This document shows, piece after piece, positions 1,350 to 42,553 of a DNA stretch of 64,000 bases. Source of the stretch: Spirochaeta cellobiosiphila DSM 17781 (lineage in GTDB: Bacteria > Spirochaetota > Spirochaetia > DSM-17781). Both the position numbers and the translations under genes were made by a program. The stretch's first letter is position 1; each line of letters starts with the position of its first letter. The notes under the pieces were generated by a model that had not been told where the DNA came from, made no database searches, and was given only the letters and a program-made list of their open reading frames with translations. The DNA is taken from NCBI RefSeq assembly GCF_000426705.1, contig NZ_AUFW01000007.1, positions 310,001 to 374,000 on the forward strand. The letters run 5' to 3'.

Positions 1350-2666
1350 ATGGCAACTAAGAAAAAAATACATTATCTATGTCAAGAATGTGGACATACA
1401 GAACCAAAGTGGCTTGGCAAATGCCCTAACTGTGGATCTTGGAATAGTTTCACCGAATTTAAAGAAGATATTGTTAGTACAAAATATCAGCCACCAAAGG
1501 TTACTGAACAAGTTTCCCTATCAGAATTAAAACAAGAGTCTGTAGAACGTATATCCACTGGACTTAGTGAGTTCGACCAAGTCATAGGAGGAGGACTAAT
1601 GAGAGGCTCCTGTTTGATGATCGGGGGAGAACCAGGAATTGGGAAATCTACATTAATGCTTCAGCTAGCCGGAAAGAAGAACTCAACAACCCTTTACATA
1701 AGCGGTGAGGAATCTGCTCTTCAAATCAAGAACAGAGCATCCCGTATAAATATTTCTCAAGAAAGCATTGATCTACTTTGTACAAACCACTTAGAAGATG
1801 TTCTCTCTCTTATCAACAAAAAGACCTATGACTTTGTTATGATCGATTCGATTCAAACCTTATATTCATCAGAAGTAGGTCCAAATCCGGGAACAGTACA
1901 GCAATTAAAGTATTGTGCCTTTGAATTGATACAACGATGTAAGGCAAAGGGCATTACTTTATTCTTGATTGCCCACATTACAAAAGGGGGAGCCATAGCC
2001 GGCCCCAAAACACTGGAACATATGGTAGACACTGTTTTGTATTTTGAGACCTCCGGTTCAGAATTACGAATATTGCGATCCACTAAGAATCGTTTTGGCT
2101 CTGTTGATGAACTAGGTATATTTTCTATGGAACAATCAGGACTAAAAGAAATAGGTAATCCGGAATCGCTCTTCCTTCCCCAAAGGGAGGATATAATGCC
2201 TACTGGAGTTTCCATATCGGCCGTATATGAAGGAAGTCGGGTGTTCTTAGTGGAAATACAAGCGTTAACAGTGAGTGCCAAAGGTGGTTTAGGGCGAGTT
2301 TATTCGGATAAGATTGAGCAGGCCAGAATAAACAGAATTGCTGCTGTATTAGAAAAACAACTCGGGATAAACCTCAACGATCAAGACATCTATGTGAACG
2401 TTGCTGGTGGTATCAAATTAGGAGAAACAGGTATCGATTTAGCCTTAGCCATAGCCATTTATTCAGCAAAGACAAATATCACTCCACCTGTTAATTCTGT
2501 ATTTGCTGGTGAAATCAGTTTATCAGGAGAAGTTCGGCCAGTATCCCACATGGATAGAAGGAAGAAAGCGGCCGAAAATCTTGGATTCAATAACTTTGTG
2601 GGACCTGATCAGAATACAAAATCCCTTACACTAGTTGATGTCTTTAAAAAATTATTTACCAAGTAA
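1350..2666 (+). CDS. radA: DNA repair protein RadA (Sms)
   Basis: RadA is a RecA-like branch-migration ATPase acting in recombinational repair. The 438-residue protein has the full family layout: a four-Cys zinc finger at the N-terminus (C11, C14, C25, C28), Walker A GEPGIGKST near residues 93-101, the RadA-specific KNRFG motif at 246-250, and a Lon-protease-like C-terminal domain that is structural in this family. AAGGAG at 1334-1339 supports the ATG at 1350. Its last codons overlap the 3' end of the convergent TraB gene by 15 bases. Length and motifs are ordinary for RadA. Confidence 0.97.
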   Translation: MATKKKIHYLCQECGHTEPKWLGKCPNCGSWNSFTEFKEDIVSTKYQPPKVTEQVSLSELKQESVERISTGLSEFDQVIGGGLMRGSCLMIGGEPGIGKSTLMLQLAGKKNSTTLYISGEESALQIKNRASRINISQESIDLLCTNHLEDVLSLINKKTYDFVMIDSIQTLYSSEVGPNPGTVQQLKYCAFELIQRCKAKGITLFLIAHITKGGAIAGPKTLEHMVDTVLYFETSGSELRILRSTKNRFGSVDELGIFSMEQSGLKEIGNPESLFLPQREDIMPTGVSISAVYEGSRVFLVEIQALTVSAKGGLGRVYSDKIEQARINRIAAVLEKQLGINLNDQDIYVNVAGGIKLGETGIDLALAIAIYSAKTNITPPVNSVFAGEISLSGEVRPVSHMDRRKKAAENLGFNNFVGPDQNTKSLTLVDVFKKLFTK

Positions 2667-3830
2667 TGTAGGCAGTACAACCAAAGAGGTAAACGTACCA
2701 ATGGCACTGCCAATACTACTTGCTAAAAAGACGATAAGGATATGTGTTACTCTGTTCTTAAAAAAACCTTTCACAGTCGTTATATCATCTTGAAGAGATT
2801 CAAAATCCTCAACTTTTGGTTTCTTAATAAATGCCTCTGTTAATCCAGCAAACATACCTGCCCCAACAAAGACATTCAAACTAGTGAACGGAGCCAATAC
2901 AAAGCTAACCAGTATACTTAAAGGATGCCCTAAAACGGCCAAAGTAAGAAGAGCACTAAAGCCACCATTGAAGATAACCCATCGTTTAATCATCTCTATT
3001 CCGACTTCTTTTCCACTAAAGAAAAATCCAGCCCCAATGACACCTACAACAATAAGGGGAATGAACCAGGGAAGAATTTTGGATAGGACACTTTTCTTAG
3101 GTAAATGAGAAATCTCTTCCAAATCAGAGCTACGTTTCTTTTCGTGTAAATCATTGAGCCATGTAATGATTCCCGGAGCATGACCAGCACCAATGACTGC
3201 AACAACTTTATTACCCTTTGAATTAAATATCTTTGTCGCTAAGTATTGATCCCTTTCATCGATCAGAACCTTTTTTACAGAGGGTAAATAACCGGATAAT
3301 TCTTCCATCATGTTTCCAAGAGCTGAAGACTCTTTTAACTTCTCGATCTCTTCTTTATCAATTTCTTCATTAGTAAAAATACTTGAGATCAATGCAGCAA
3401 GCATCTTGTTTTTATTCCAAAAATTACTCAAGGCCCAAGCCCTGCGTAAGGTCACCTGAATCTCTCGATCCGATAATTCAAAAGGAATATTAAGCTCTTC
3501 ACAGATCTCAATAGCCTTCACCATTTCCTCACCAGGTTTCGTTCCCAGATCAGCGCCAATCTTTTTCTGAAAGCTGCTCATAGCTAAGTTAGCGAGTAAG
3601 AGAAACCCTTTTTTTTGTTTTAATACCTGACTTATATCAAGTTTAGTCCAGGAGCTTCCTCCTTTGATTCCTTGATAGCGACCAGCATCTAATTCAATAC
3701 AAACTAAATCAGGCCTTTCTTCTTCTATTGTTCGACGAACTTCATCCACACTTTCCTTTGAAACATGGGCTGTACCAATTAAAGTAATTTCACGATCACC
3801 TAATTTAATTTTATGAATATTATCCTTCAC
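2652..3830 (-). CDS. TraB/PrgY-family membrane protein
   Basis: 392 residues from a GTG start at 3830, preceded by AGGAG at good spacing and 13 bases after the upstream stop. A longer reading from 3887 would overlap the DHH gene and adds residues unlike the family. The N-terminal domain has the TraB signature GTAHVSKES and a second conserved His in GAGHAPGI; both belong to the putative metal site of the TraB/PrgY/GumN superfamily. The C-terminal third carries about four hydrophobic segments, as in the PrgY-like branch. PrgY is reported to lower peptide pheromone activity in Enterococcus, but the bacterial family as a whole is poorly understood, so a peptidase-like role is inference only. Lies downstream of, and probably is co-transcribed with, the DHH phosphoesterase and the TPR lipoprotein. 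Confidence 0.85.
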   Translation of the reverse strand: MKDNIHKIKLGDREITLIGTAHVSKESVDEVRRTIEEERPDLVCIELDAGRYQGIKGGSSWTKLDISQVLKQKKGFLLLANLAMSSFQKKIGADLGTKPGEEMVKAIEICEELNIPFELSDREIQVTLRRAWALSNFWNKNKMLAALISSIFTNEEIDKEEIEKLKESSALGNMMEELSGYLPSVKKVLIDERDQYLATKIFNSKGNKVVAVIGAGHAPGIITWLNDLHEKKRSSDLEEISHLPKKSVLSKILPWFIPLIVVGVIGAGFFFSGKEVGIEMIKRWVIFNGGFSALLTLAVLGHPLSILVSFVLAPFTSLNVFVGAGMFAGLTEAFIKKPKVEDFESLQDDITTVKGFFKNRVTHILIVFLASSIGSAIGTFTSLVVLPTLLGK

Positions 3831-3843
3831 TTTTACTCCTAAC

Positions 3844-4812
3844 TTACAAACCGATAATAGAAACAAAACGTTCATACAATTCTTCACGTCCTGGAAAGTT
3901 TTCTATAGGGATAACACCACCCCCCATATGAGTGTGACCACCACCAAAACCAATACCTTCCAGAGCCTGTTTAGTGATGTCCCCTGCTGATTTTCTATTA
4001 TCTTCACTGCGTACTGATATTTTTATCTCTTTTTCTGCTTTAGAAGCAATGACTATAAAATGAATCTCACGATATCTTAAAAAATCATCCGCTATTAAAG
4101 CCAATAAATCTGGTGCACATTCCATATTAATATAAGAAAAGCAAAATTCATCTTTTATTTCTGCATTCCACAAAGCCTGTTTTATTGCTGGGACTTCTGC
4201 TACAGAAAGGCTGTTCTTGAGGATAAAACTTCCCTTATCCCATTGCCCAAATTTATATAGATAATTAAAACCATCCAAATCAAGCTGGCTCACCCGTCTC
4301 GTCAAATAAGCAGTGTCCATCATAATCCCCATCAACAAACTAGTAGCAATATCTCTTTCAGGCTGAATTTGTGTTTGATAGTAGTAATCATATATTAAGC
4401 TTGAACAACTGCCGACATCATCTCTAACATCCCAATAGGGAATATTTAATTCTGTAGGGATGGGGTGATGATCGACAACCCCTATGATTTCCCCGGGTAA
4501 TTTAGCAATATTGGCATTAGAGAAATTACCATCTACTTGGACAATCTGATCCTCAGTACCAAGTTCTAAAGATTCCCAATGATATACGGGGATCTTTAAA
4601 ACCCTGATGGCAACTTTTAAACTATGACTTAAAAGATCTTCGCCATAACAAACAATATTATTGATACCATAGTGATCAAATAAAAAACTAAGCCCATAAG
4701 CAGAGGCAATAGCATCATGATCTGGATAATTGTGAGTCTGGATAATCACCCGTCTCTCTGGATCCAGAGCCGCAATTAAATCACTAAATCTGTTATTTTG
4801 ATTTATTGACAT
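3844..4812 (-). CDS. DHH/DHHA1 phosphoesterase, NrnA-like
   Basis: 322 residues. It shows the DHH superfamily motifs: NYPDHDAIAS for the metal-binding DHD, VDGN, the DHH motif in VDHHP, and a C-terminal DHHA1 substrate-binding motif GGGHTHMGGG. Bacterial relatives of this size (NrnA, or bifunctional oligoribonuclease/PAP phosphatase) degrade nanoRNA or pAp, and some cleave pGpG or c-di-AMP products; the exact substrate cannot be read from sequence. The start overlaps the end of the TPR lipoprotein gene by 20 bases and the TraB gene begins 13 bases after the stop, so the three look like one leftward operon. Confidence 0.88.
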   Translation of the reverse strand: MSINQNNRFSDLIAALDPERRVIIQTHNYPDHDAIASAYGLSFLFDHYGINNIVCYGEDLLSHSLKVAIRVLKIPVYHWESLELGTEDQIVQVDGNFSNANIAKLPGEIIGVVDHHPIPTELNIPYWDVRDDVGSCSSLIYDYYYQTQIQPERDIATSLLMGIMMDTAYLTRRVSQLDLDGFNYLYKFGQWDKGSFILKNSLSVAEVPAIKQALWNAEIKDEFCFSYINMECAPDLLALIADDFLRYREIHFIVIASKAEKEIKISVRSEDNRKSAGDITKQALEGIGFGGGHTHMGGGVIPIENFPGREELYERFVSIIGL

Positions 4813-6133
4813 AATATCGGGCCATTGTTAATTCAGGGAATCCAGACAGACCGCTTTCAGAGATCTCTTCATAATATCTCATGGCAGACTCCTTTAATCC
4901 TTGATCTTCATAAGCCATTGCGATGAAGAACTTCATTCGCATTTGAACACTTTCTTTCTTTATCTTCTGAAGGGTAGCTTCCAACATATAATCACTTCCT
5001 GGCTGAAGATAAAATCGACCTACTTCATAGAATGGATTATCTTTTGGAACTTTGCGAAGTTCTTTCTCCAGGTACTTAAAAGCTTTTTGCTTATTCCCCT
5101 CTTTTTTATAAGTCATAGCAATAAACAAAATCATACTATATTCTGTAGGATAACGTTCATAGACCCAATTAAACTTTTCTCGTGCTTCCCTATACTGCCC
5201 CTTACTGAAGAGGAGATAACAATAGGTATCATAAAGATAATGATAATCGGGCTTTAACTCCAAGGCTCTCTTCATATCCACATAGGCATTGTCCCAATCA
5301 GCCTCTTCTTCATAGATAGAGCCGCGATATACTCGTGCAAAAAAATTATCATCTTGTAAGTCTATAACCTTATTAAAGCTTTCAAGAGCCTCTTCATTCT
5401 TATATAAACTTTTATATTGCAGTTTACCTAATTCCATAAAGAACCAGGGATTGTCTGGATCAAGCTCAGTGGCTTTAACAAGATCTTTTTCTGCATCACC
5501 AAATTTACCTAGTTCAACATTAATCAAACCACGATCTTCATATAAATAAGGACTAGTGTTATCAATAGCTAAAGCTCTGTTAACATATTCAAAAGCCGCT
5601 TTATAGTCTTCATCCTGTTTTGCCAGATTAGATAATCCAATGAGGGACACATAGTCTGGCCGTATAGCAATGGCCTTAGTGAAGAATTCCTTTGCCATAT
5701 CATATTCGTTATTATTGTAGTAGTAGACACCTAAGCCGGAGTAGGCTCTATCGTCTTGATCATCTATCTCAAGGATATTCTCCAAATAGGCTTTATAAGA
5801 AGGCCAATCCTCAGCTTGTTCTGCCAGTAATGCTAAATTGTATAAGGCATCTGTATTGTTTTTATCTTTTTTATTGGCTTCTTGTGCGGCAGATTTTGCC
5901 AAATCATAATCGCCAGCCGCCAATAGCAAGCTAGAGTAGACAGAAGCTTCTTCTCCTGATAAATCCTCTAATTCTTTATTTTGAAAAACAGCTATTGCCT
6001 CTTGAGGGTCCTTTTTTTCAGAATAATTATCGAGTGCTTTATTAATAGTAGCGCTATCTGATACTCCTGTTGTTTGACACGATAATAGTGCAAAAACCAT
6101 TATCACAGGGATGAGCTTTTTGAAAAAGTTCAT
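4793..6133 (-). CDS. TPR-repeat lipoprotein
   Basis: 446 residues with a lipoprotein signal peptide ending in the lipobox LLSC, so lipidation at Cys19 is expected. The rest is a chain of roughly ten tetratricopeptide-type helix pairs with the usual Ala/Gly and Tyr/Pro pattern, for example ALYNLALLAEQ, AYSGLGVYYY and DPDNPWFFMELGKL. Such proteins are scaffolds for protein complexes at the periplasmic face of a membrane. No catalytic motif is visible. AAGGAGTTAAA precedes the ATG. First gene of the leftward set with the DHH phosphoesterase and TraB protein, and divergent from the 6225 gene. Confidence 0.88.
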   Translation of the reverse strand: MNFFKKLIPVIMVFALLSCQTTGVSDSATINKALDNYSEKKDPQEAIAVFQNKELEDLSGEEASVYSSLLLAAGDYDLAKSAAQEANKKDKNNTDALYNLALLAEQAEDWPSYKAYLENILEIDDQDDRAYSGLGVYYYNNNEYDMAKEFFTKAIAIRPDYVSLIGLSNLAKQDEDYKAAFEYVNRALAIDNTSPYLYEDRGLINVELGKFGDAEKDLVKATELDPDNPWFFMELGKLQYKSLYKNEEALESFNKVIDLQDDNFFARVYRGSIYEEEADWDNAYVDMKRALELKPDYHYLYDTYCYLLFSKGQYREAREKFNWVYERYPTEYSMILFIAMTYKKEGNKQKAFKYLEKELRKVPKDNPFYEVGRFYLQPGSDYMLEATLQKIKKESVQMRMKFFIAMAYEDQGLKESAMRYYEEISESGLSGFPELTMARYYVNKSK

Positions 6134-6190
6134 TTTAACTCCTTATTAAACAGGTACCTAATATAAACTGAGAATCTAAATTGAACAAGG

Positions 6191-6219
6191 TTGAACTTTT
6201 ACGGGACCACAAGTAAAAT
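6191..6219 (+). promoter_or_regulatory. Promoter of the 6225 gene (likely leaderless)
   Basis: TTGAAC (6191-6196), a 17-base spacer and TAAAAT (6214-6219). The start codon at 6225 lies 5 bases after the -10, so the transcript would begin at the ATG. The -35 hexamer is part of a direct repeat, TTGAACAAGGTTGAAC, at 6181-6196. Confidence 0.45.
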
Positions 6220-6224
6220 GGCCC

Positions 6225-8060
6225 ATGGTCAACACTAATTATAAGCGACGATTAATACTAACTCCTCTTGTTTTTATGATAGGATTTATCATCATACTTG
6301 TTGTTCAATTTTCAAATGAAAGCCAGTTCTCATCAGAGCATCTTGGGTTAATTTTGTCAGGAACCAGTGCTGGAGAGCAAGCTGGTAAAAAACAAATACA
6401 AGATATAACTATCCAGAAGAGCAACATTGACTTTATTTTCAGTCGAGATATACCTCTTATTTTAAACACCACTGACGGTGTTACTCATAGAATTCGGCCA
6501 GAATCCTACGAACTTAAAGAGGATGGCTTAGATATTTTATTTGAAGACCAGGTTACCTTAAGATTCAGAGTAAGTGAGGAAAATAATCTCAATATTCAGC
6601 CAATCCTCCCAGAAGACCCTGCCAGGATTGAATCGATGATTATTAATTTCTCCCTAGTCCAAGGTTCCGAAGCTCATCCGAGAGAGAATCTTCCTATTAT
6701 GACCATTCAAGGTCAAAAAGAAAATATATATCTGGCCCTCAACTCTGACAGTCGTATAGATATGGACAAAAGGGAGCTTCTCTTAGCTCCTGAAGATAAA
6801 GGCTTTGTTCCTGTTGTCGTGGAAACACTCCCTGCCTCAGTAAATATTAAGAATTATTTAGCTCAACGGAACGAAGATAATGAATTGGTCAATTATGACA
6901 ATACAGTAGACAATTTTATCAATAGGGCTTTCAGACAATGGCAGTCAGCAAGATTTAACTTAGGACAGGGTACCTGGACATCATCAAAAGGCACAAACTT
7001 CTATACAAATATTGCAGTCGCTACGATGGCGGAAAGCTTAGTGACCAACCAATCACAAACGGTTCACCCTATTGTGCAAAATGCGGCTAGCTTATGGCCT
7101 CAGAAGCAAACATGGGAAGGTAGTACATTTTTTGGTGATATTGTTAACAAAGAGACAGATCAACGTGAGTTTATGCTCAACAAATTAGCACAGGACAGGA
7201 GTTTATTGAGGGATCACAATCTTCGTTTTCTCTATGAAGAAGGAGGTTGGGAAGCTGTAGGCCTCTATGGAGATGAAAATGATTTTGCTCAAATCATGTC
7301 GAATATTTCCCATATACAATTAACTCCAAATACCGTTGAAATCCTCCAGCTAGCCCGTAATTTTCTATTGATATCTCAATGGAGATCTGGTTCAACAAAG
7401 AGAATTAGAAGTGTTGCTATTCTCCTTGAGGAACAGTTACTCAAGAGTTTGTATAATCAGAACGACAATGTATTTCTAACAAACCAGTTTGGAGAGCTTG
7501 ATCTCTATGCTTCCCTTTTGGGTGGATGGGTATTCCAGCAAATGGGATCTGTATTGCAAGATGACTCCTATACAAACCTGGGAAAACAACTGGTGCTATC
7601 TTCCTTAAAATATGAAAGAGGAACAGGAAACCTCCCTCTCTACCTTGATGAAAATAATGGGGAGATTACCTGGAATGGACAGGATATCCTGGAACCAGAA
7701 AGGATATATCCGCTGTTAAGGACAACCGCTTATTATCCTCATTATATCAACCTAAAAGAATATCTTGGATACGACAGTTGGATATGGACCTCATCCGATA
7801 TGAACATCAGTAAGAATAGTCAGAATCAATTAGTCATTATATCAAAATATCCAGTAAGACAGACACATTATTTTGTTATCTACGGATTGCGGCCCTTTAC
7901 AGGTATAGTTCTTCACAACATACCCTGGCCAGGTGATTATAGATTCCAAAGGTACTCTGAGGGTTACTACTACAATCCCAACAATACGACATTATACTTT
8001 AAGTTAAGACAGAGACGTACAGAAGATTCTATTGTTATCTCTCTGGGAGCTTCCTCCTAA
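6225..8060 (+). CDS. Membrane-anchored protein of unknown function (611 aa)
   Basis: I do not recognise this family. A single hydrophobic segment at residues 9-27 preceded by KRR suggests a signal anchor, with the remaining 580 residues outside the cytoplasm. Residues 40-200 look beta-rich. Residues 215-480 are mostly amphipathic helix with many Trp and Gln, loosely like the helical barrels of some glycan-active proteins, but no catalytic motif can be assigned. The C-terminal 100 residues are again beta-rich and aromatic. No Shine-Dalgarno; see the promoter directly upstream. The 3' end overlaps the convergent ppk1 gene by 26 bases. Confidence 0.75.
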   Translation: MVNTNYKRRLILTPLVFMIGFIIILVVQFSNESQFSSEHLGLILSGTSAGEQAGKKQIQDITIQKSNIDFIFSRDIPLILNTTDGVTHRIRPESYELKEDGLDILFEDQVTLRFRVSEENNLNIQPILPEDPARIESMIINFSLVQGSEAHPRENLPIMTIQGQKENIYLALNSDSRIDMDKRELLLAPEDKGFVPVVVETLPASVNIKNYLAQRNEDNELVNYDNTVDNFINRAFRQWQSARFNLGQGTWTSSKGTNFYTNIAVATMAESLVTNQSQTVHPIVQNAASLWPQKQTWEGSTFFGDIVNKETDQREFMLNKLAQDRSLLRDHNLRFLYEEGGWEAVGLYGDENDFAQIMSNISHIQLTPNTVEILQLARNFLLISQWRSGSTKRIRSVAILLEEQLLKSLYNQNDNVFLTNQFGELDLYASLLGGWVFQQMGSVLQDDSYTNLGKQLVLSSLKYERGTGNLPLYLDENNGEITWNGQDILEPERIYPLLRTTAYYPHYINLKEYLGYDSWIWTSSDMNISKNSQNQLVIISKYPVRQTHYFVIYGLRPFTGIVLHNIPWPGDYRFQRYSEGYYYNPNNTTLYFKLRQRRTEDSIVISLGASS

Positions 8061-24060: not shown

Positions 24061-24888
24061 TTAAAACAAACTTGGTTCATAGTATTCTAACCTATAATAT
24101 TGAACATTAGGTGCTTTCATGCTTAGAGATTTACGAAACATAGTCGGTGGCTGGATATTATGAGGCATCATATCAAAATGCGCAGGAATAGCAATCTTTG
24201 GATTAATGAGAGCAGTAATCTCTGCGGCCTCCCAGTGGGTTAAATTGTGATATCCCCCATTAATACAGATACTCATCCAATCAATATCAAAACTATTTAC
24301 ATGCTCCAATAGTTCTGTTTTTGCAGTATCACCTGAATTGTAGTACTTCTTACCGCAAGCAAAATGAAGAACAAATCCCATGTGATTTAAATCGGTGAAA
24401 TCTGTAGGTTCTGCAAATGTTCCAGTTATCTTTATTCCTTTCCATTCCCATTGCTCTAAAGGATGAACAAGTTTAACATCCTTTATTCCTGCTTTTTTCA
24501 AGATAGGGACTGCTTGAAAAGGTGCTGCAAAATAAGCACTATCCTTTATGGTCAATCTTTCAAGAGTGTAAGGATCGGCATGATCTGGGTGACTATGAGT
24601 TATAAGGACGATATCAACTTTCAAGTCTTCTGGTTCGATGAAAATGGGCAGGATACGACTTTTTACAGTTGGAACTCCAGTTCTCTTGCTACCACAATAG
24701 TCAGTAAGATAAGGGTCTATTGCAATAATAGTGCCCTCTTCATTCTTGAGTATCCAAGAATTTTGACCAAGGGTCCACATGGCTACTTTATTTATAGGAA
24801 CAGAAAAACGTTCAATGTGTTCCATAAATTCTTTACTTGTATACTTTATATTAACTTCTTTTGGAAAAATGACTTCCTCTGGGATCAT
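24061..24888 (-). CDS. UlaG-like metallo-beta-lactamase-fold hydrolase
   Basis: 275 residues. The MBL-fold metal motif THSHPDHAD is complete, and further ligands are placed in YNSGDTA and IPAHFDM. The spacing and the WSWILKNEEGTIIAIDPYLTD-like opening agree with the UlaG branch (L-ascorbate-6-phosphate lactonase and relatives). No other ascorbate-use gene is nearby, so the substrate is unknown. AAGGAG precedes the ATG. Single gene, divergent from the TtcA-like gene. Confidence 0.85.
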   Translation of the reverse strand: MIPEEVIFPKEVNIKYTSKEFMEHIERFSVPINKVAMWTLGQNSWILKNEEGTIIAIDPYLTDYCGSKRTGVPTVKSRILPIFIEPEDLKVDIVLITHSHPDHADPYTLERLTIKDSAYFAAPFQAVPILKKAGIKDVKLVHPLEQWEWKGIKITGTFAEPTDFTDLNHMGFVLHFACGKKYYNSGDTAKTELLEHVNSFDIDWMSICINGGYHNLTHWEAAEITALINPKIAIPAHFDMMPHNIQPPTMFRKSLSMKAPNVQYYRLEYYEPSLF

Positions 24889-24933
24889 AAATACTCCTTT
24901 TCTATCCTTAACGGATCTATTACTATTCTGATC

Positions 24934-25680
24934 ATGTCAGAGTCTAAAAAGCAAGAACAAAAGCTGGATAAGAAGATCAGTAAGGCTATCTTCAAATATA
25001 ATATGATTGAAGATGGTGATAAAATACTATTAGCCTTGTCTGGAGGAAAGGATTCCTTAACCCTTCTTCATTTTCTCTATAAAAAACAAAAGAACTTTAA
25101 ATTTCCATTTACAGTAGAAGCACTTCATGTTCGATCAGAATTTATCAATCAATCAAAATTAAATATGATGTTAGATTTACTTGCTGACTGGGACATTCCT
25201 GTCAAGATTCTAGATATAAACGTTAAAAACAGATTGAAAAAAAATCAAAAAATGAATTGTTACTGGTGCTCCCTTCAAAGACGGACAGAGTTACTTAATT
25301 ACGCTCAAAAAAATGGCTTTACAAAGATAGCCCTTGGACATCATATGGATGACATCGTAGAAACTTTTTTTATGAATATGATTCAAAAAGGACAACTATC
25401 AACAATGCTACCTCTATTAAAACTGGACGATTATAAACTAAGTTTTATTCGCCCTCTCTGCTTAATAAAAGAACAGGAAATAATAGATTATGTGGAATCA
25501 CAAAACATTCAAAAAGTAACATGTACCTGTCAAATGGATACAACATCAAAAAGGCATGAAGCCTCAGAGTTAATCAAATCCCTAAAAAACATCTATGGTA
25601 CAAAAGCTCTAGACCAAGTCTATAAGTCCCTTCATAATCCACAAGTCAATTATCTAATCAAAGAGAGTCATCATGAATGA
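24934..25680 (+). CDS. TtcA-like tRNA thiolation/PP-loop ATPase
   Basis: TtcA makes 2-thiocytidine-32 in tRNA using an iron-sulfur cluster and ATP. 248 residues. PP-loop SGGKDS near residue 38, then a CxxC in NCYWCSLQRR, the TtcA stretch KIALGHHMDDIVETFFMNM, and late cysteines in VTCTCQM. The frame is open far upstream but the ATG at 24934 begins the conserved domain; the upstream part overlaps the MBL gene on the other strand and is unlike TtcA. No Shine-Dalgarno; TACTAT seven bases ahead of the ATG could be a -10. Overlaps the next gene by 8 bases. Confidence 0.88.
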   Translation: MSESKKQEQKLDKKISKAIFKYNMIEDGDKILLALSGGKDSLTLLHFLYKKQKNFKFPFTVEALHVRSEFINQSKLNMMLDLLADWDIPVKILDINVKNRLKKNQKMNCYWCSLQRRTELLNYAQKNGFTKIALGHHMDDIVETFFMNMIQKGQLSTMLPLLKLDDYKLSFIRPLCLIKEQEIIDYVESQNIQKVTCTCQMDTTSKRHEASELIKSLKNIYGTKALDQVYKSLHNPQVNYLIKESHHE

Positions 25681-36225: not shown

Positions 36226-36530
36226 TGGCGTCGATTACACTATTGAATACTAATACAACCATTAAAACCTCACCAGCAATATCCATACTAAATTCACTAC
36301 TAAGAGAAGGTATATTCATTAACCATCTTTGCGGGGGCAAAGCAGGGTGTGGGACGTGTCAGATTAAAATCATCAGCGGGCATAAATATTTAAGTAAAAA
36401 AACAGAAAGAGAGAAACTTAGGCTAGTTAAAGTGAAAGCCCAAAAAGATATTCGCCTAGCTTGTCAATGTCATACTTTTGGAGATATCACAATAGCCATA
36501 AGATTCAAAAAAGCTTCCATCAAACATTGA
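36225..36530 (+). CDS. Adrenodoxin-type 2Fe-2S ferredoxin
   Basis: 101 residues. Four cluster cysteines at C36, C42, C45 and C80 with the spacing C-x5-C-x2-C of vertebrate/ISC-type ferredoxins (LCGGKAGCGTC and RLACQ). A one-electron carrier. No partner reductase or oxygenase is next to it. Start and stop of neighbours overlap (TAATG), so it is translated directly after the diguanylate cyclase; what it reduces cannot be told. Confidence 0.9.
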   Translation: MASITLLNTNTTIKTSPAISILNSLLREGIFINHLCGGKAGCGTCQIKIISGHKYLSKKTEREKLRLVKVKAQKDIRLACQCHTFGDITIAIRFKKASIKH

Positions 36531-36571
36531 AAGTTGAAATTAAATACATAGAATTTAGATGGGAGACGAAT

Positions 36572-37117
36572 ATGCTTGTTGCTGCTGAGATATGGACGGT
36601 AGCAAGAACAAACCAAGGAAATGCAGTTGTTGTTAAAGCAATAAATACTGAGAAGGCTATACCAATACTGATAGGTAATTTAGAAACACAGTCTATTCTC
36701 ATTGGCTTAGGTAAACTAAAAATACCCCGTCCATTAACACATGACCTATTTATATCTCTTTTGGATCAATTACATGTTGATATACAACAAGTAGAAATTT
36801 ATAAGTACTCAAATGAAACATACTATGCGAATATTGTATATATGTGTTCCGATGAAGTTCATAAATTGGATTGCCGTCCATCAGATGCTCTCAGTCTAAT
36901 GGTTCGACTTAAAATTCCATTACTCATCGAAAGTGAAATTTTTGAAGCACAAGGTGTAGAAATATTTACATTTGAAGAGGACATGCAAATAGAATCACAC
37001 CCTAATAAGAAGATTATGTTGGAAGAGAAACTAAAGGACTGTGTCGAACAGGAAAAATATGAAGAAGCTGCAGTAATCAGAGATTTATTAAAGGAGATTG
37101 ATGATTTAACAAAATGA
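36572..37117 (+). CDS. Bifunctional nuclease-domain protein (DUF151) with UvrB/UvrC motif
   Basis: 181 residues from the ATG at 36572, which has GGGAGA upstream and begins the conserved domain. Residues 1-135 are DUF151/BFN: IPILIGNLETQSILIGL, TYYANI and DCRPSDALSLMVRL. Plant members have RNase and DNase activity. The tail (about 145-181) is a UvrB/UvrC-type helical hairpin, EEKLKDCVEQEKYEEAAVIRD, which binds partner proteins. This combination is common in bacteria. Its stop overlaps the GH77-like start by four bases. Confidence 0.9.
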   Translation: MLVAAEIWTVARTNQGNAVVVKAINTEKAIPILIGNLETQSILIGLGKLKIPRPLTHDLFISLLDQLHVDIQQVEIYKYSNETYYANIVYMCSDEVHKLDCRPSDALSLMVRLKIPLLIESEIFEAQGVEIFTFEEDMQIESHPNKKIMLEEKLKDCVEQEKYEEAAVIRDLLKEIDDLTK

Positions 37118-39075
37118 ATACATCTGTGAAAAATATCTATAAAACGTCTGTCAGCATCCCTCTGTTTTCTCTTTCATCAGAATCTTCTGTGGGATGCGGT
37201 GAATTTCTTGATTTGATTCCATTTGGAAATTGGTGTAAGCAAGTAGGCATAGATAACATACATCTACTCCCCGTTAATGATACTGGATGTAATAAATCTC
37301 CTTATTCAACAATTAGTACTTTTGCTCTTAACCCAATATATATTCAATTGCAAGTGTTAGCTCATTATGAAAATATTAAGGATGATGTAGAAAAGAGTTT
37401 TAAAAAAATAACTTTTAAAGAACATATAGACTATAGCGCTGTTAGAAATAAAAAAATAAAAATACTGAGACAATTGTACCATTTATTACCAAAGACATGG
37501 TCAGAAGGACCTGAAATCAATAATTGGATAAATGACAATACATGGGTGAAAAGCTATAGTTTGTTCTGTCATTTATTACAAAAACAACATAATGACCCAT
37601 GGAAAGGGTGGAAGGAATACCGAACTTTAGAAGAGGAAGAGTGTTTTTCACTATGGAATAAAAAACAAAATAAACAGGAACTATACTTTTATATTTGGGT
37701 TCAATATGAATTAGATAAACAGTTTAAAAGTGCAGTGAAGCATCTTGAAAACCTAGGAATAACATTGCAATGCGATCTATCTTTATTAGTACCCGAGGAC
37801 AGTTGCGATGTTTGGTATCATAGAGAAATTTTCAAACCACGCTTACATGCAGGAGCTCCCCCAGAAAAAAACCTTCCCTCAGGACAAAATTGGGGGTATT
37901 CCATATATAACTGGAAAAATTACCGTCACGAGGTTTATAACTATTGGGATAAAAGATTAAATTGTTTATCTCAATATTTTCACTCCATTAGAGTAAGTCA
38001 TGCTCAAGGATTGTTTAGAATCTGGTGTACACCAGAATATAATTACTCTGGAATACTAGGATATTACACACCAGCAGTGTACATAGATCATAAGAAATTA
38101 ATGGAATTTGGTTTCGATGATACACGAATCAAATGGCTCAGTTTACCCCATATTGAGGGATCAAAACTTTTTGGAATCTTAGGCCAAGAAGCATCAAAGG
38201 TCATAGAATTAGCCCTCAATCAATTGCCTAATGAAGATCTTTACCTTTTCAAACCATTTATTAAGGGAGAAAAAGTAATTAGGGAATTGCCCCTGAGTAA
38301 GGAAGCAAAGAAATTCCTCACTAGTGAATTTAACAGTCGTTGCTTAATAGAAGTATCTAAAGACAAGTATGCTCTGGCATGGAATTATAAATACTCTCCC
38401 TCCTATCTTTCCTTAAGTTCATTAGAAAAAAATACACTTTTAGCCTTAAGCGAGGAATGCCAAAGAGATTCACAAGTATTATGGAAAAAACAAGGAACAA
38501 ATACACTTCAATATCTTATTTCAAAAGACTTGGATATATCTGTAGAGACTTTAGGCGTAAGCCCTGAAGGGATATATGATGTTCTTAAAGATATGAATAT
38601 CGAAAATACAGTAGTGTTAAAGTGGCATAGGGAATGGAACAAATACGGTTCTCCCTTTCTTAAAAGTAACCAATATACATACTTATCCAGTTGTACATTA
38701 AGCACTCATAATACGAACACAGCTAAACAATGGCTCAGGAATGAAGTATTGAGTGATTTACAAAAAGAAAGCTTAAACTTACCCTTAGGAGAGAATCAAA
38801 CGAGCTTCAATAGTTATAAGAGTCTCATCAAGCATCTACTTTCTATAAAATGTAGGAATGTACTCCTTAATATCCAAGATATCATCAACCTGGATGAAAA
38901 GAATTTCCATAACATCAATGACATTATCATAAATGATGCAAATACAAATAATGAATTGAATTGGTCCTATAAAATTCCAATAACTATTGAAGAATTGAGT
39001 AACAATAATGACCTAAATACTTATCTAAAAAGAAACATACAGATACGAAGAGGTATGGAAGATGCATCATTTTAA
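37114..39075 (+). CDS. GH77 (4-alpha-glucanotransferase/DPE2-like) homologue with altered catalytic residues
   Basis: 653 residues of MalQ/DPE2-type fold. Family landmarks are SIPLFSLSSESSVGCGEFLDL, NKSPYSTISTFALNP, SGQNWGYSIYNWKNY, and SIRVSHAQGLFRIW, followed by GILGYYTPA. MalQ moves alpha-1,4-glucan chains by a D-E-D triad. Here S295 replaces the nucleophile Asp of RIDH, N533 replaces the third Asp of the HDxxT motif (THNTNT), and only E478 (VETLG) is kept. So it is probably not a normal glucanotransferase; a binding or regulatory role is likely. Translated from a 4-base overlap with the nuclease gene and followed by the GH13 gene. Confidence 0.85.
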   Translation: MNTSVKNIYKTSVSIPLFSLSSESSVGCGEFLDLIPFGNWCKQVGIDNIHLLPVNDTGCNKSPYSTISTFALNPIYIQLQVLAHYENIKDDVEKSFKKITFKEHIDYSAVRNKKIKILRQLYHLLPKTWSEGPEINNWINDNTWVKSYSLFCHLLQKQHNDPWKGWKEYRTLEEEECFSLWNKKQNKQELYFYIWVQYELDKQFKSAVKHLENLGITLQCDLSLLVPEDSCDVWYHREIFKPRLHAGAPPEKNLPSGQNWGYSIYNWKNYRHEVYNYWDKRLNCLSQYFHSIRVSHAQGLFRIWCTPEYNYSGILGYYTPAVYIDHKKLMEFGFDDTRIKWLSLPHIEGSKLFGILGQEASKVIELALNQLPNEDLYLFKPFIKGEKVIRELPLSKEAKKFLTSEFNSRCLIEVSKDKYALAWNYKYSPSYLSLSSLEKNTLLALSEECQRDSQVLWKKQGTNTLQYLISKDLDISVETLGVSPEGIYDVLKDMNIENTVVLKWHREWNKYGSPFLKSNQYTYLSSCTLSTHNTNTAKQWLRNEVLSDLQKESLNLPLGENQTSFNSYKSLIKHLLSIKCRNVLLNIQDIINLDEKNFHNINDIIINDANTNNELNWSYKIPITIEELSNNNDLNTYLKRNIQIRRGMEDASF

Positions 39076-39121: not shown

Positions 39122-42100
39122 ATGGAGTTTCACATTTCAAAAGAAACACGTGATAAATATCAATTTGATAATGAATTATTTACTACTAATGGTAACGTCA
39201 TTATCACGAACCTTAATGGAGCTAGACAATTAGCTTTCAAATTAAATGAAAATAAAGATCTATTAACAAATCCTGAAGAGGAAATTAAAGCAGCACAAAT
39301 TTTCACAATGGGATTAATTGATGAAATATTACATTACGTGTGTCATTTATATCGAACAGAAAAAGGCGCTGATACATTTGATAATGTCATTCCCCATTTA
39401 GTACAAGCACTGGGACAAGAAGAACTTAATAAAGTCCTTTATGAATTTACGAATCTTTTCCCTCCTAAAGCAGTGTATCAAAATACCCAAACTAGTGAAG
39501 AATACTTATCAACATCTACTGATACCATAGACAACAATATCATTTCCATTGAAGAAATCATGCTATTATGGTTAGCAAACCAAAACCAAGCTTTTAAACC
39601 TTATAAAGAATTGTTTGATGATTCTAAATTAATAGAGAATACAAAATACACTCTGCTTATGGGACAATTAGATATTTATTTTAAGGGCCAAGATTTCTTT
39701 GGTCCAGAAAATTTAGACTTATTAGGATTATTGCAAAGTCCATCAAAACATCATCCTACGTCACTAAGAAAACAGTTAGAGTATATAAAAAATAATTGGG
39801 GGCATTGGCTAAGTGAGTATTTATTGCGATTGTTGAATGCATTGGACTACATGAATGAGGAGGACAAGTTTTTCCTGAGACCTACATCATTTAACCCGCA
39901 GCCCTCCATTCCCTCCTATAGTGGACTATCAGAACGTGAGGGATTTACGGAAGACAAATCTTGGATGCCTAATGCCATTGTATTAGCAAAAAATACTTTA
40001 GTTTGGTTAGAACAGTTAAGCAAAAAATATCAAAAAGACATTCATACTTTAGACAAAATCCCGGACGAAGAGTTGATTAATTTATCGAATTTTGGTTTTA
40101 CAGCTATTTGGTTTATTGGATTATGGGAACGCAGTAAGGCCAGCCAGACTATAAAACAAATTAATGGAAACTTAGAAGCAACGGGATCAGCTTATTCTGT
40201 TGCTCATTACGATATTGCACAAAATCTAGGAGGCTGGGAAGCATTATATAATCTTAAAAAGAGAGCCTCTCATTATGGTTTGAAGATTGCTAGTGATATG
40301 GTTCCAAACCATACCGGAATTGATGCTAATTTATTATATGACCATCCTGATTGGTTTATACATTGTGAATATTCCCCTTTTCCCAATTATAGCTTTAATG
40401 GAATTAACCTATCCCAATCATCAAATGTAGGTATTTTTCTAGAAGACCATTATTATGACCATACAGATGCTTCTGTAGTATTCAAACATATCGAATATTC
40501 AAACAATAAAATTCGATATATCTATCATGGAAATGATGGAACTTTTATGCCCTGGAATGATACGGCACAGCTTAACTATTTATTACCAGAAGTTCGTGAG
40601 TACGTTATAGACCAAATAATAAAAATAGCCAATATTTTTCCTATTATCAGATTCGATGCTGCTATGACCCTAACAAAAAAACACATTCAACGGCTGTGGT
40701 TTCCAGAACCAGGTACAGGTGGTGCTATTCCCAGTAGAGCAGAACATAGCTTAAATAAACATGATTTTGATCAATTAATACCTGAAGAATTTTGGAGAGA
40801 AGTGGTCGACCGAGTTCAAAAAGAAGTACCTGACACTTTATTAATAGCAGAAGCCTTTTGGATGATGGAAGGATATTTTGTTAGGTCATTAGGTCTACAT
40901 AGAGTATATAACTCAGCTTTTATGCATATGTTACGAGATGAGAAAAATGGAGAATTTAGGACCCTCATCAAAAATACATTATTATTTGATGCTGATATAC
41001 TGAAGAGATTTGTAAACTTTATGAACAACCCAGATGAAGAGACGGCAATTGAACAGTTTGGTGATGGTGATAAGTATTTTGGAGTTTGTACTCTATTAGT
41101 AACACTACCAGGAACACCAATGTTTGGACATGGTCAGATAGAAGGTTTCAAAGAAAAATATGGAATGGAATACGTAAGACCTTTATGGGATGAAAATCCT
41201 AATCTTAGTCTTTTAAATAGACACCAAAATGAAATATCGCCATTGATGAAGAAACGATATTTATTCTCTGGTGTTAAAAATTTTTATTTATATGATCTCT
41301 GGTCAACAGAGGGATTTGTCAACGAGAATGTCATTATATTTTCCAATAAACTAAACAATGAAAATGTCTTAGTTCTCTATAATAACTGTCATCAAAATGC
41401 TCAAGGCTGGATTAATCAAACAGTTGGATACAAAGATAAATATCAATCAGATGATCACATAAAGCAAAGAAAATTGGGAGAGGTGTTAAATCTATCTCTT
41501 GCACAAGATAGATATGTGATCTTCAGAGAGTATTTTTCTAATTTATGGTATATCAGAAGCTGTTATGATTTTTCCTCAGAAGGTCTTTTTATTAGTTTAA
41601 ATGGCTATGGTAAACATATTTTTACAGATTTTTATGAAATCCAAGATGATCATAATAGACATTATAATAGTCTTTGTTACTACTTAAATGGACATGGTGT
41701 TTCTAATATCCAGAAAGCTTTAGGAGCCATGGTAATAGCGCCGATCGGATCAGCAATTCTTAACTTTATGACCGAAGGATATAATGTCATTAATAGAGAA
41801 AACAATTTTGAAGAAAGGTTAAATGAAATCACAGGACTTTATTCTACTTTTGTAAATGATCTCAACAAACACTTTCATCAAAATTTAAATTATAAATGTG
41901 ATATTACAGGACTTGTTAAAATTCTCGAATTCGAAAAAATATTCAAAGCAAGTAAGTCACGAAAAGTAAATACAATTATCGACTTTATAAACAAAGAGAC
42001 TGTTATAAGTATCTGGATAGTTTTTGCTGCCAAAACTCTTTTAGATAATATTATGACCAATGTGATAGAAAAACCTGAGTATCTTTATATAAAGGATTTA

Positions 42101-42553
42101 ATACTAGAAGCTATCATTGAAGAATATTTCCTTCCCTACTGTAACACACATAATATCAAAATTGATAATTTGAGTTATTTATTGAGAGTACTAACACAGG
42201 AGAGGATCTGCTTTATTCATAAGAATGAATCTACCAATAGTTATAAAGTCTTAACAAGACTTTTTAGAGATACTGATTGCCGTCAATTATTTGGAGTCAA
42301 TCAGTTTGATGGAATATTATGGTATAATAAGGAAAAATTTATAAATACATCAATGTGGTTAACCATTAATAGTCTTATTACAAATATCAACAATATGCCC
42401 ATTGATAAGAACGTCTATAAAAAGATTATTGATCATAGTATTAAAATAATTGAACCTTGGATAAATAATTCTGATTTAAGTGAGTTCAGGGTAAAGAAAT
42501 TACTAAGACTTGTTATGGAGTGTTCAGATCAAAAATCAGCTCAAGTAAACTGA
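39122..42553 (+). CDS. Large alpha-amylase-family (GH13) protein
   Basis: 1143 residues from the ATG at 39122 (AAGG seven bases before); a possible start at 39062 with GAAGAGG would overlap the GH77 gene. The barrel lies in the middle. Region I DMVPNHTG, region II IRFDAAMTLTKKH (nucleophile D512) and region III LIAEAFW (acid/base E577) are present. Region IV is altered: canonical His-Asp reads Met-Asn in FVNFMNNPDEE, though D638 is close. The N-terminal 280 residues and C-terminal 400 residues are unassigned and helical. It likely acts on alpha-glucan or maltooligosaccharide. Its 3' end overlaps the convergent regulator gene by 41 bases. Confidence 0.85.
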   Translation: MEFHISKETRDKYQFDNELFTTNGNVIITNLNGARQLAFKLNENKDLLTNPEEEIKAAQIFTMGLIDEILHYVCHLYRTEKGADTFDNVIPHLVQALGQEELNKVLYEFTNLFPPKAVYQNTQTSEEYLSTSTDTIDNNIISIEEIMLLWLANQNQAFKPYKELFDDSKLIENTKYTLLMGQLDIYFKGQDFFGPENLDLLGLLQSPSKHHPTSLRKQLEYIKNNWGHWLSEYLLRLLNALDYMNEEDKFFLRPTSFNPQPSIPSYSGLSEREGFTEDKSWMPNAIVLAKNTLVWLEQLSKKYQKDIHTLDKIPDEELINLSNFGFTAIWFIGLWERSKASQTIKQINGNLEATGSAYSVAHYDIAQNLGGWEALYNLKKRASHYGLKIASDMVPNHTGIDANLLYDHPDWFIHCEYSPFPNYSFNGINLSQSSNVGIFLEDHYYDHTDASVVFKHIEYSNNKIRYIYHGNDGTFMPWNDTAQLNYLLPEVREYVIDQIIKIANIFPIIRFDAAMTLTKKHIQRLWFPEPGTGGAIPSRAEHSLNKHDFDQLIPEEFWREVVDRVQKEVPDTLLIAEAFWMMEGYFVRSLGLHRVYNSAFMHMLRDEKNGEFRTLIKNTLLFDADILKRFVNFMNNPDEETAIEQFGDGDKYFGVCTLLVTLPGTPMFGHGQIEGFKEKYGMEYVRPLWDENPNLSLLNRHQNEISPLMKKRYLFSGVKNFYLYDLWSTEGFVNENVIIFSNKLNNENVLVLYNNCHQNAQGWINQTVGYKDKYQSDDHIKQRKLGEVLNLSLAQDRYVIFREYFSNLWYIRSCYDFSSEGLFISLNGYGKHIFTDFYEIQDDHNRHYNSLCYYLNGHGVSNIQKALGAMVIAPIGSAILNFMTEGYNVINRENNFEERLNEITGLYSTFVNDLNKHFHQNLNYKCDITGLVKILEFEKIFKASKSRKVNTIIDFINKETVISIWIVFAAKTLLDNIMTNVIEKPEYLYIKDLILEAIIEEYFLPYCNTHNIKIDNLSYLLRVLTQERICFIHKNESTNSYKVLTRLFRDTDCRQLFGVNQFDGILWYNKEKFINTSMWLTINSLITNINNMPIDKNVYKKIIDHSIKIIEPWINNSDLSEFRVKKLLRLVMECSDQKSAQVN

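Follow-up and report, generated by a model that had tools for sequence, protein, structure and literature searches.

Glycoside hydrolases of family GH77 act by double displacement, with D293 as the nucleophile, E340 as the acid/base and D395 as the transition-state stabiliser in Thermus numbering (PMC8875642; PMC8465469). The triad has been described as conserved though its surroundings vary (PMC11046441), and mutagenesis of plant DPE2 indicated that all three residues are required (PMC3789958). In plant DPE2 and the DPE2-type proteins of Bacteroidota, GH77 is split by an insertion between the nucleophile and the acid/base, as in the protein described here; in plant DPE2 this insertion has 173 aa (PMC8875642). 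Among plant isoamylase subunits, ISA2 is non-catalytic and is bound to ISA1 (PMC12510319). A GH77 pseudoenzyme was not found in the literature that was searched, a search whose coverage excluded most subscription journals, and the protein encoded at the present locus would be one. It lies in a window of 64,000 nucleotides from the genome of Spirochaeta cellobiosiphila DSM 17781.

Fold and catalytic positions of the long GH77 protein

The gene occupies positions 37114-39075 on the + strand, starts with ATG and is open for 653 codons with zero internal stops. Its product of 653 aa, P0001, is a DPE2-type protein and a predicted pseudoenzyme. Its Pfam match is GH77 (PF02446, 304.8 bits, E 1.4e-90), which covers residues 15-622 and positions 1-460 of the profile. 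The AlphaFold model, built with 48 sequences, reached a pLDDT of 90.4 and a pTM of 0.90, and all of the top 20 PDB matches to the first model were GH77 amylomaltases, with Z of about 30-32. By descent and fold the protein is a GH77 member, and the (beta/alpha)8 fold of the amylomaltases is predicted for it with confidence. In the predicted structure, the strand 291-295 ends at S295 and the strand 474-478 ends at E478. The codon periodicity of the gene (GC1-GC3 of 0.11) is at the low end, inside the range of the window. Elsewhere in the window, a 405-aa open reading frame (24463-25680, + strand) has a flat codon-position GC (0.36/0.28/0.36), overlaps an opposite-strand frame of 275 aa (24061-24888) and is possibly non-coding. 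An Rfam search of the whole window gave zero matches.

The catalytic positions depart from those of active GH77 enzymes at two points of the triad. The nucleophile Asp, which stands in R[IVL]DH in active members, is replaced by S295 (AGT) in the motif RVSH (residues 293-296; 37990-38001, + strand). The acid/base Glu is retained as E478 (GAG) in the motif ETLG (residues 478-481; 38545-38556, + strand), where the adjoining Asp is lost (D479T). The transition-state Asp, part of an HD pair in active members, gives way to N533 (AAT) in the motif HNTNT (residues 532-536; 38707-38721, + strand). No compensating Asp or Glu was seen within these motifs. In a sequence search of solved structures, RVSH lined up with the strand bearing the nucleophile in Thermus amylomaltases, and in an alignment with a Bacteroidota DPE2-type protein S295 and N533 again fell opposite the nucleophile and the transition-state Asp. 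Misalignment of the motifs was ruled out by several alignments, which took in the solved structures, the class orthologues, the named loci and the Bacteroidota protein. The preliminary description of this DNA had assigned S295, N533 and the kept E478 in the same way, and the codons and alignments confirm it; realignment does not overturn the assignment of S295, which stays opposite the nucleophile Asp in every alignment. The loss of two catalytic carboxylates from a retained GH77 fold, as claimed there, is likewise borne out by alignment, and what had been missed was D479T, the intact orthologues and the second, intact GH77 of the genome.

Orthologues and the extent of the losses

Orthologues of P0001, taken at E <= 1e-60, are present in 146 of the 395 same-class genomes, its own genome counted, and occur also in Fibrobacterota and Nitrospirota. 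They can be aligned with P0001 over the full length at 29-39% identity. Plasmid records held just distant DPE2-type or MalQ homologues. The D/E/D triad is retained in 126/126 orthologues taken from whole class genomes (29 + 97) and in 79/79 readable named loci, two sets that may partly overlap in species. The nucleophile Asp, acid/base Glu and transition-state Asp were found in 108/108 sequences (29 class orthologues and 79 named loci) and then in 97/97 further class genomes, which took in the most divergent matches. The Asp after the acid/base, which is Thr at position 479 of P0001, is invariant in the same sets (29; 108; 97). The combination S/E/T/N at positions 295, 478, 479 and 533 occurs in P0001 alone among the sampled orthologues, and no other triad-deficient long GH77 was present among the sequences read from the matches in the 395 class genomes, divergent ones included. 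The source genome is the sole member of its order among the genomes compared, and a single-protein scan of genome contigs returned no close relative of P0001. The question of whether S295 and N533 are fixed in other Spirochaetota, which the preliminary description had raised, can be answered in the negative: within the sequences compared, the substitutions are confined to the lineage of P0001.

The spacing between the nucleophile and the acid/base positions is 183 residues in P0001, 180-203 in its orthologues, 191 in a Parabacteroides protein and 47 in the canonical MalQ of the same genome, and by this spacing P0001 has the DPE2-type insertion. The Parabacteroides protein, which consists of two CBM20 domains and GH77, matches P0001 over the full length in BLASTP (E 3e-59). 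GH77 is the sole Pfam match of P0001, with no CBM20, and CBM20 was also absent from the two orthologues that were checked; this absence is probably a feature of the clade and not a loss in P0001. The protein is DPE2-like in its catalytic domain and is not a full DPE2.

The damage reaches beyond the triad. P0001 breaks 22 of 79 near-invariant columns of the family, of which any other member breaks at most 3 (median 0). The regions for two comparisons were picked after the list of columns had been seen, so their p-values are descriptive: 12 of the 22 broken columns lie within 8 residues of D221, S295, E478 or N533, compared with 11 of the 57 kept ones (Fisher p 0.005), and residues 1-210 have lost 1 of 21 columns. 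The protein retains D221, R293, H296, E478, H532, Q258 and W260, the NDTG..SPYS region of the N-terminal part and most of the AGAPP..GQNWG loop. The 250s-type loop (residues 240-260, ..AGAPPEKNLPSGQNW; 37831-37893, + strand) is largely retained in the alignment of orthologues. Read from the aligned columns, the losses cluster at the active site, and the N-terminal part, the 250s loop and the remaining pocket are mostly retained.

The candidate GH13 partner and the gene neighbourhood

The upstream gene (36461-37117, + strand) encodes a bifunctional nuclease domain and UVR, and its stop codon lies in a 4-nt overlap (37114-37117) with the start of the GH77 gene. Downstream lies P0002, a GH13 gene on the + strand (39122-42553) with an intact triad, D532/E597/D658. 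The mechanical open reading frame begins at 39062, and the start is most likely at 39122 (M21), because the orthologues begin there, after AAGG. An overlap with the GH77 gene is therefore unlikely, and of the overlapping run of genes that had been described before, the upstream overlap stands and the downstream one probably does not.

The GH13 partner family is present in 81/118 class genomes. GH13 was found in 48 named loci, always on the strand of GH77 and downstream of it; in 40 of these it is within 200 nt, often with a short overlap. At least 21 loci lack it, although their sequence extends more than 4.4 kb downstream of GH77. In locus L064 (Spirochaetaceae bacterium UBA1318; 2661-6507), the two are joined in one open reading frame, in which GH77 spans residues 13-670 and GH13 runs from 681 up to the end of the contig; this fusion comes from a single MAG contig, in which an assembly slip is possible. 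Because of the conserved linkage and the fused frame, the GH13 protein would be the best candidate partner of P0001. Many class genomes have GH13 without a long GH77 neighbour, so GH77 is not obligatory for it.

The GH13 partner family is itself unusual in its architecture. Its members are about 1150-1250 aa long and occur class-wide in spirochaetes. In the partner (39122-42553), the Pfam Alpha-amylase match (32 bits) covers the middle third alone, and no Pfam domain falls in the remaining stretches of about 290 residues at the N-terminus and 260 at the C-terminus. A close solved relative was not found. Its region IV reads NNPDE in place of NHD, and P657 and D658 are invariant in 63/63 paired relatives.

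Elsewhere in the source genome there is a second GH77, a canonical MalQ with an intact triad, together with one glycogen phosphorylase, one glycogen synthase-type GT5 and several GH13. As judged from this gene content, the organism has alpha-glucan metabolism, disproportionation included, even without P0001, and disproportionation would be carried out by the intact MalQ.

Expected loss of activity, alternative readings and comparison with known systems

P0001 would be a former DPE2-type GH77 that has lost its 4-alpha-glucanotransferase activity and has been retained as a non-catalytic protein. From the GH77 mechanism and the DPE2 mutagenesis, it can be expected that no glucosyl-enzyme would form without the nucleophile Asp, and that the oxocarbenium-like state would be left unstabilised without the transition-state Asp. 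With an S/E/N triad, inactivity is therefore expected, and from the sequence it is nearly certain that P0001 lacks glucanotransferase activity. A sequencing, assembly or alignment artefact behind the substitutions is scarcely credible. The assembly is a draft of 29 contigs with 2.3% contamination, which would favour an artefact, but D295S (GAY to AGT) and D479T (GAY to ACT) need two nucleotide changes each, all 653 codons are open, and the gene lies on a 394-kb contig beside its conserved GH13 partner. It is also very improbable that P0001 is still an ordinary glucanotransferase in which another carboxylate stands in. Nothing beyond the retained fold speaks for such an enzyme; both Asp positions are invariant in the 126 other class genomes, the DPE2 mutagenesis requires each triad residue (PMC3789958), and the motifs offer no Asp or Glu in compensation. 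A changed chemistry, in which E478 would serve as the acid/base of a different reaction in a polar S295/N533 pocket, for example with an external nucleophile, could draw on the retention of E478, D221, R293, H296 and H532, but D479 beside the acid/base is lost as well, and a substrate or cofactor signature was not found in the protein. We know of no GH77 or GH13 member that works by an external-nucleophile scheme of this kind, and this reading is improbable.

A more serious alternative, although still an unlikely one, is a relict in early decay, redundant beside the intact MalQ, which lost its function so recently that no stop has appeared yet. The presence of the second GH77, the 22 broken columns, the low codon periodicity of the gene and the complete absence of a long GH77 from many relatives would all fit such a course. 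P0001 sits on a long branch, as does the adjacent GH13, which marks the entire lineage as fast-evolving. The GH77/GH13 tree-distance ratio is 1.73 in the source genome and 1.60 +/- 0.13 in 63 others (rank 8 of 64); the distance of P0001 relative to its partner is thus not raised, which speaks against a general acceleration of the GH77 gene over the GH13 gene. In the paired set, the GH13 partner loses 13/201 near-invariant columns and the GH77 loses 25/84. In 500 runs of a neutral simulation, each continued until 22 of the 79 columns had changed, a mean of 15.8 stops arose (minimum 5) and no run remained open, compared with zero stops in the actual gene. When just the three Asp losses were counted as having followed inactivation, 38/500 runs were still open, which leaves some room for very recent decay, but in view of the other broken columns such a late inactivation is improbable. 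The conserved N-terminal residues, too, have been retained. As no close relative shares the substitutions, the case for selection after the loss rests on the relative rate and the neutral simulation, which support the earlier view that the intact frame does not reflect simple decay. There is good reason to believe that P0001 has been kept as a functional protein.

The reading preferred here is that of a non-catalytic protein that probably binds glucan and scaffolds its GH13 partner, and as a whole it is favoured by a modest margin over being wrong. The rest of the cleft is retained, so glucan binding is likely; the kept pocket and channel (D221, R293, H296, E478, H532, the 250s loop and the SPYS region) would serve to bind alpha-1,4-glucan. 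The conserved linkage and the fused frame suggest that P0001 may partner the downstream GH13 enzyme, by binding glucan or as a scaffold, a role whose chances are put slightly above even. In glycogen metabolism it is probably a non-enzymatic partner. The locus warns against annotation of such a protein as an active 4-alpha-glucanotransferase.

Among known systems, the closest are the DPE2-like GH77 proteins of spirochaetes, Fibrobacter and Nitrospirota (e.g., that of Breznakiella homolactica, L078), which have the same insertion and full-length homology with P0001; most spirochaete loci also have the same GH13 neighbour. These orthologues keep D/E/D, whereas P0001 has S/E/N together with D479T. 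Plant and Bacteroidota DPE2 carry an N-terminal CBM20 pair; P0001 lacks this pair and, in addition, two of the three catalytic carboxylates. The amylomaltase of Borrelia burgdorferi is likewise a deviant spirochaete GH77 and has been placed in a group of its own (PMC8465469). According to the title of the paper on it (cited in PMC8875642), only the catalytic triad is conserved in that enzyme, which is active. P0001 is its opposite; as far as that title goes, P0001 reverses the GH77 pattern, with the triad lost and most other pocket residues kept. Like P0001 in the reading preferred here, ISA2 is a non-catalytic paralogue in alpha-glucan metabolism and a partner of a catalytic GH13 enzyme (PMC12510319). 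Unlike P0001, it belongs to GH13 and to plant starch, and its partnership has been demonstrated, while that of P0001 is deduced. The chances are about even that P0001, by analogy, serves the adjacent GH13 as a glucan-binding subunit or as a regulator and is hence a bacterial counterpart of ISA2. With the GH13 partner, the intact paralogue and the intact orthologues as ready controls, P0001 would lend itself to a clean test of whether pseudoenzymes of glycogen metabolism are retained in bacteria as glucan-binding subunits, as ISA2 is in plants.
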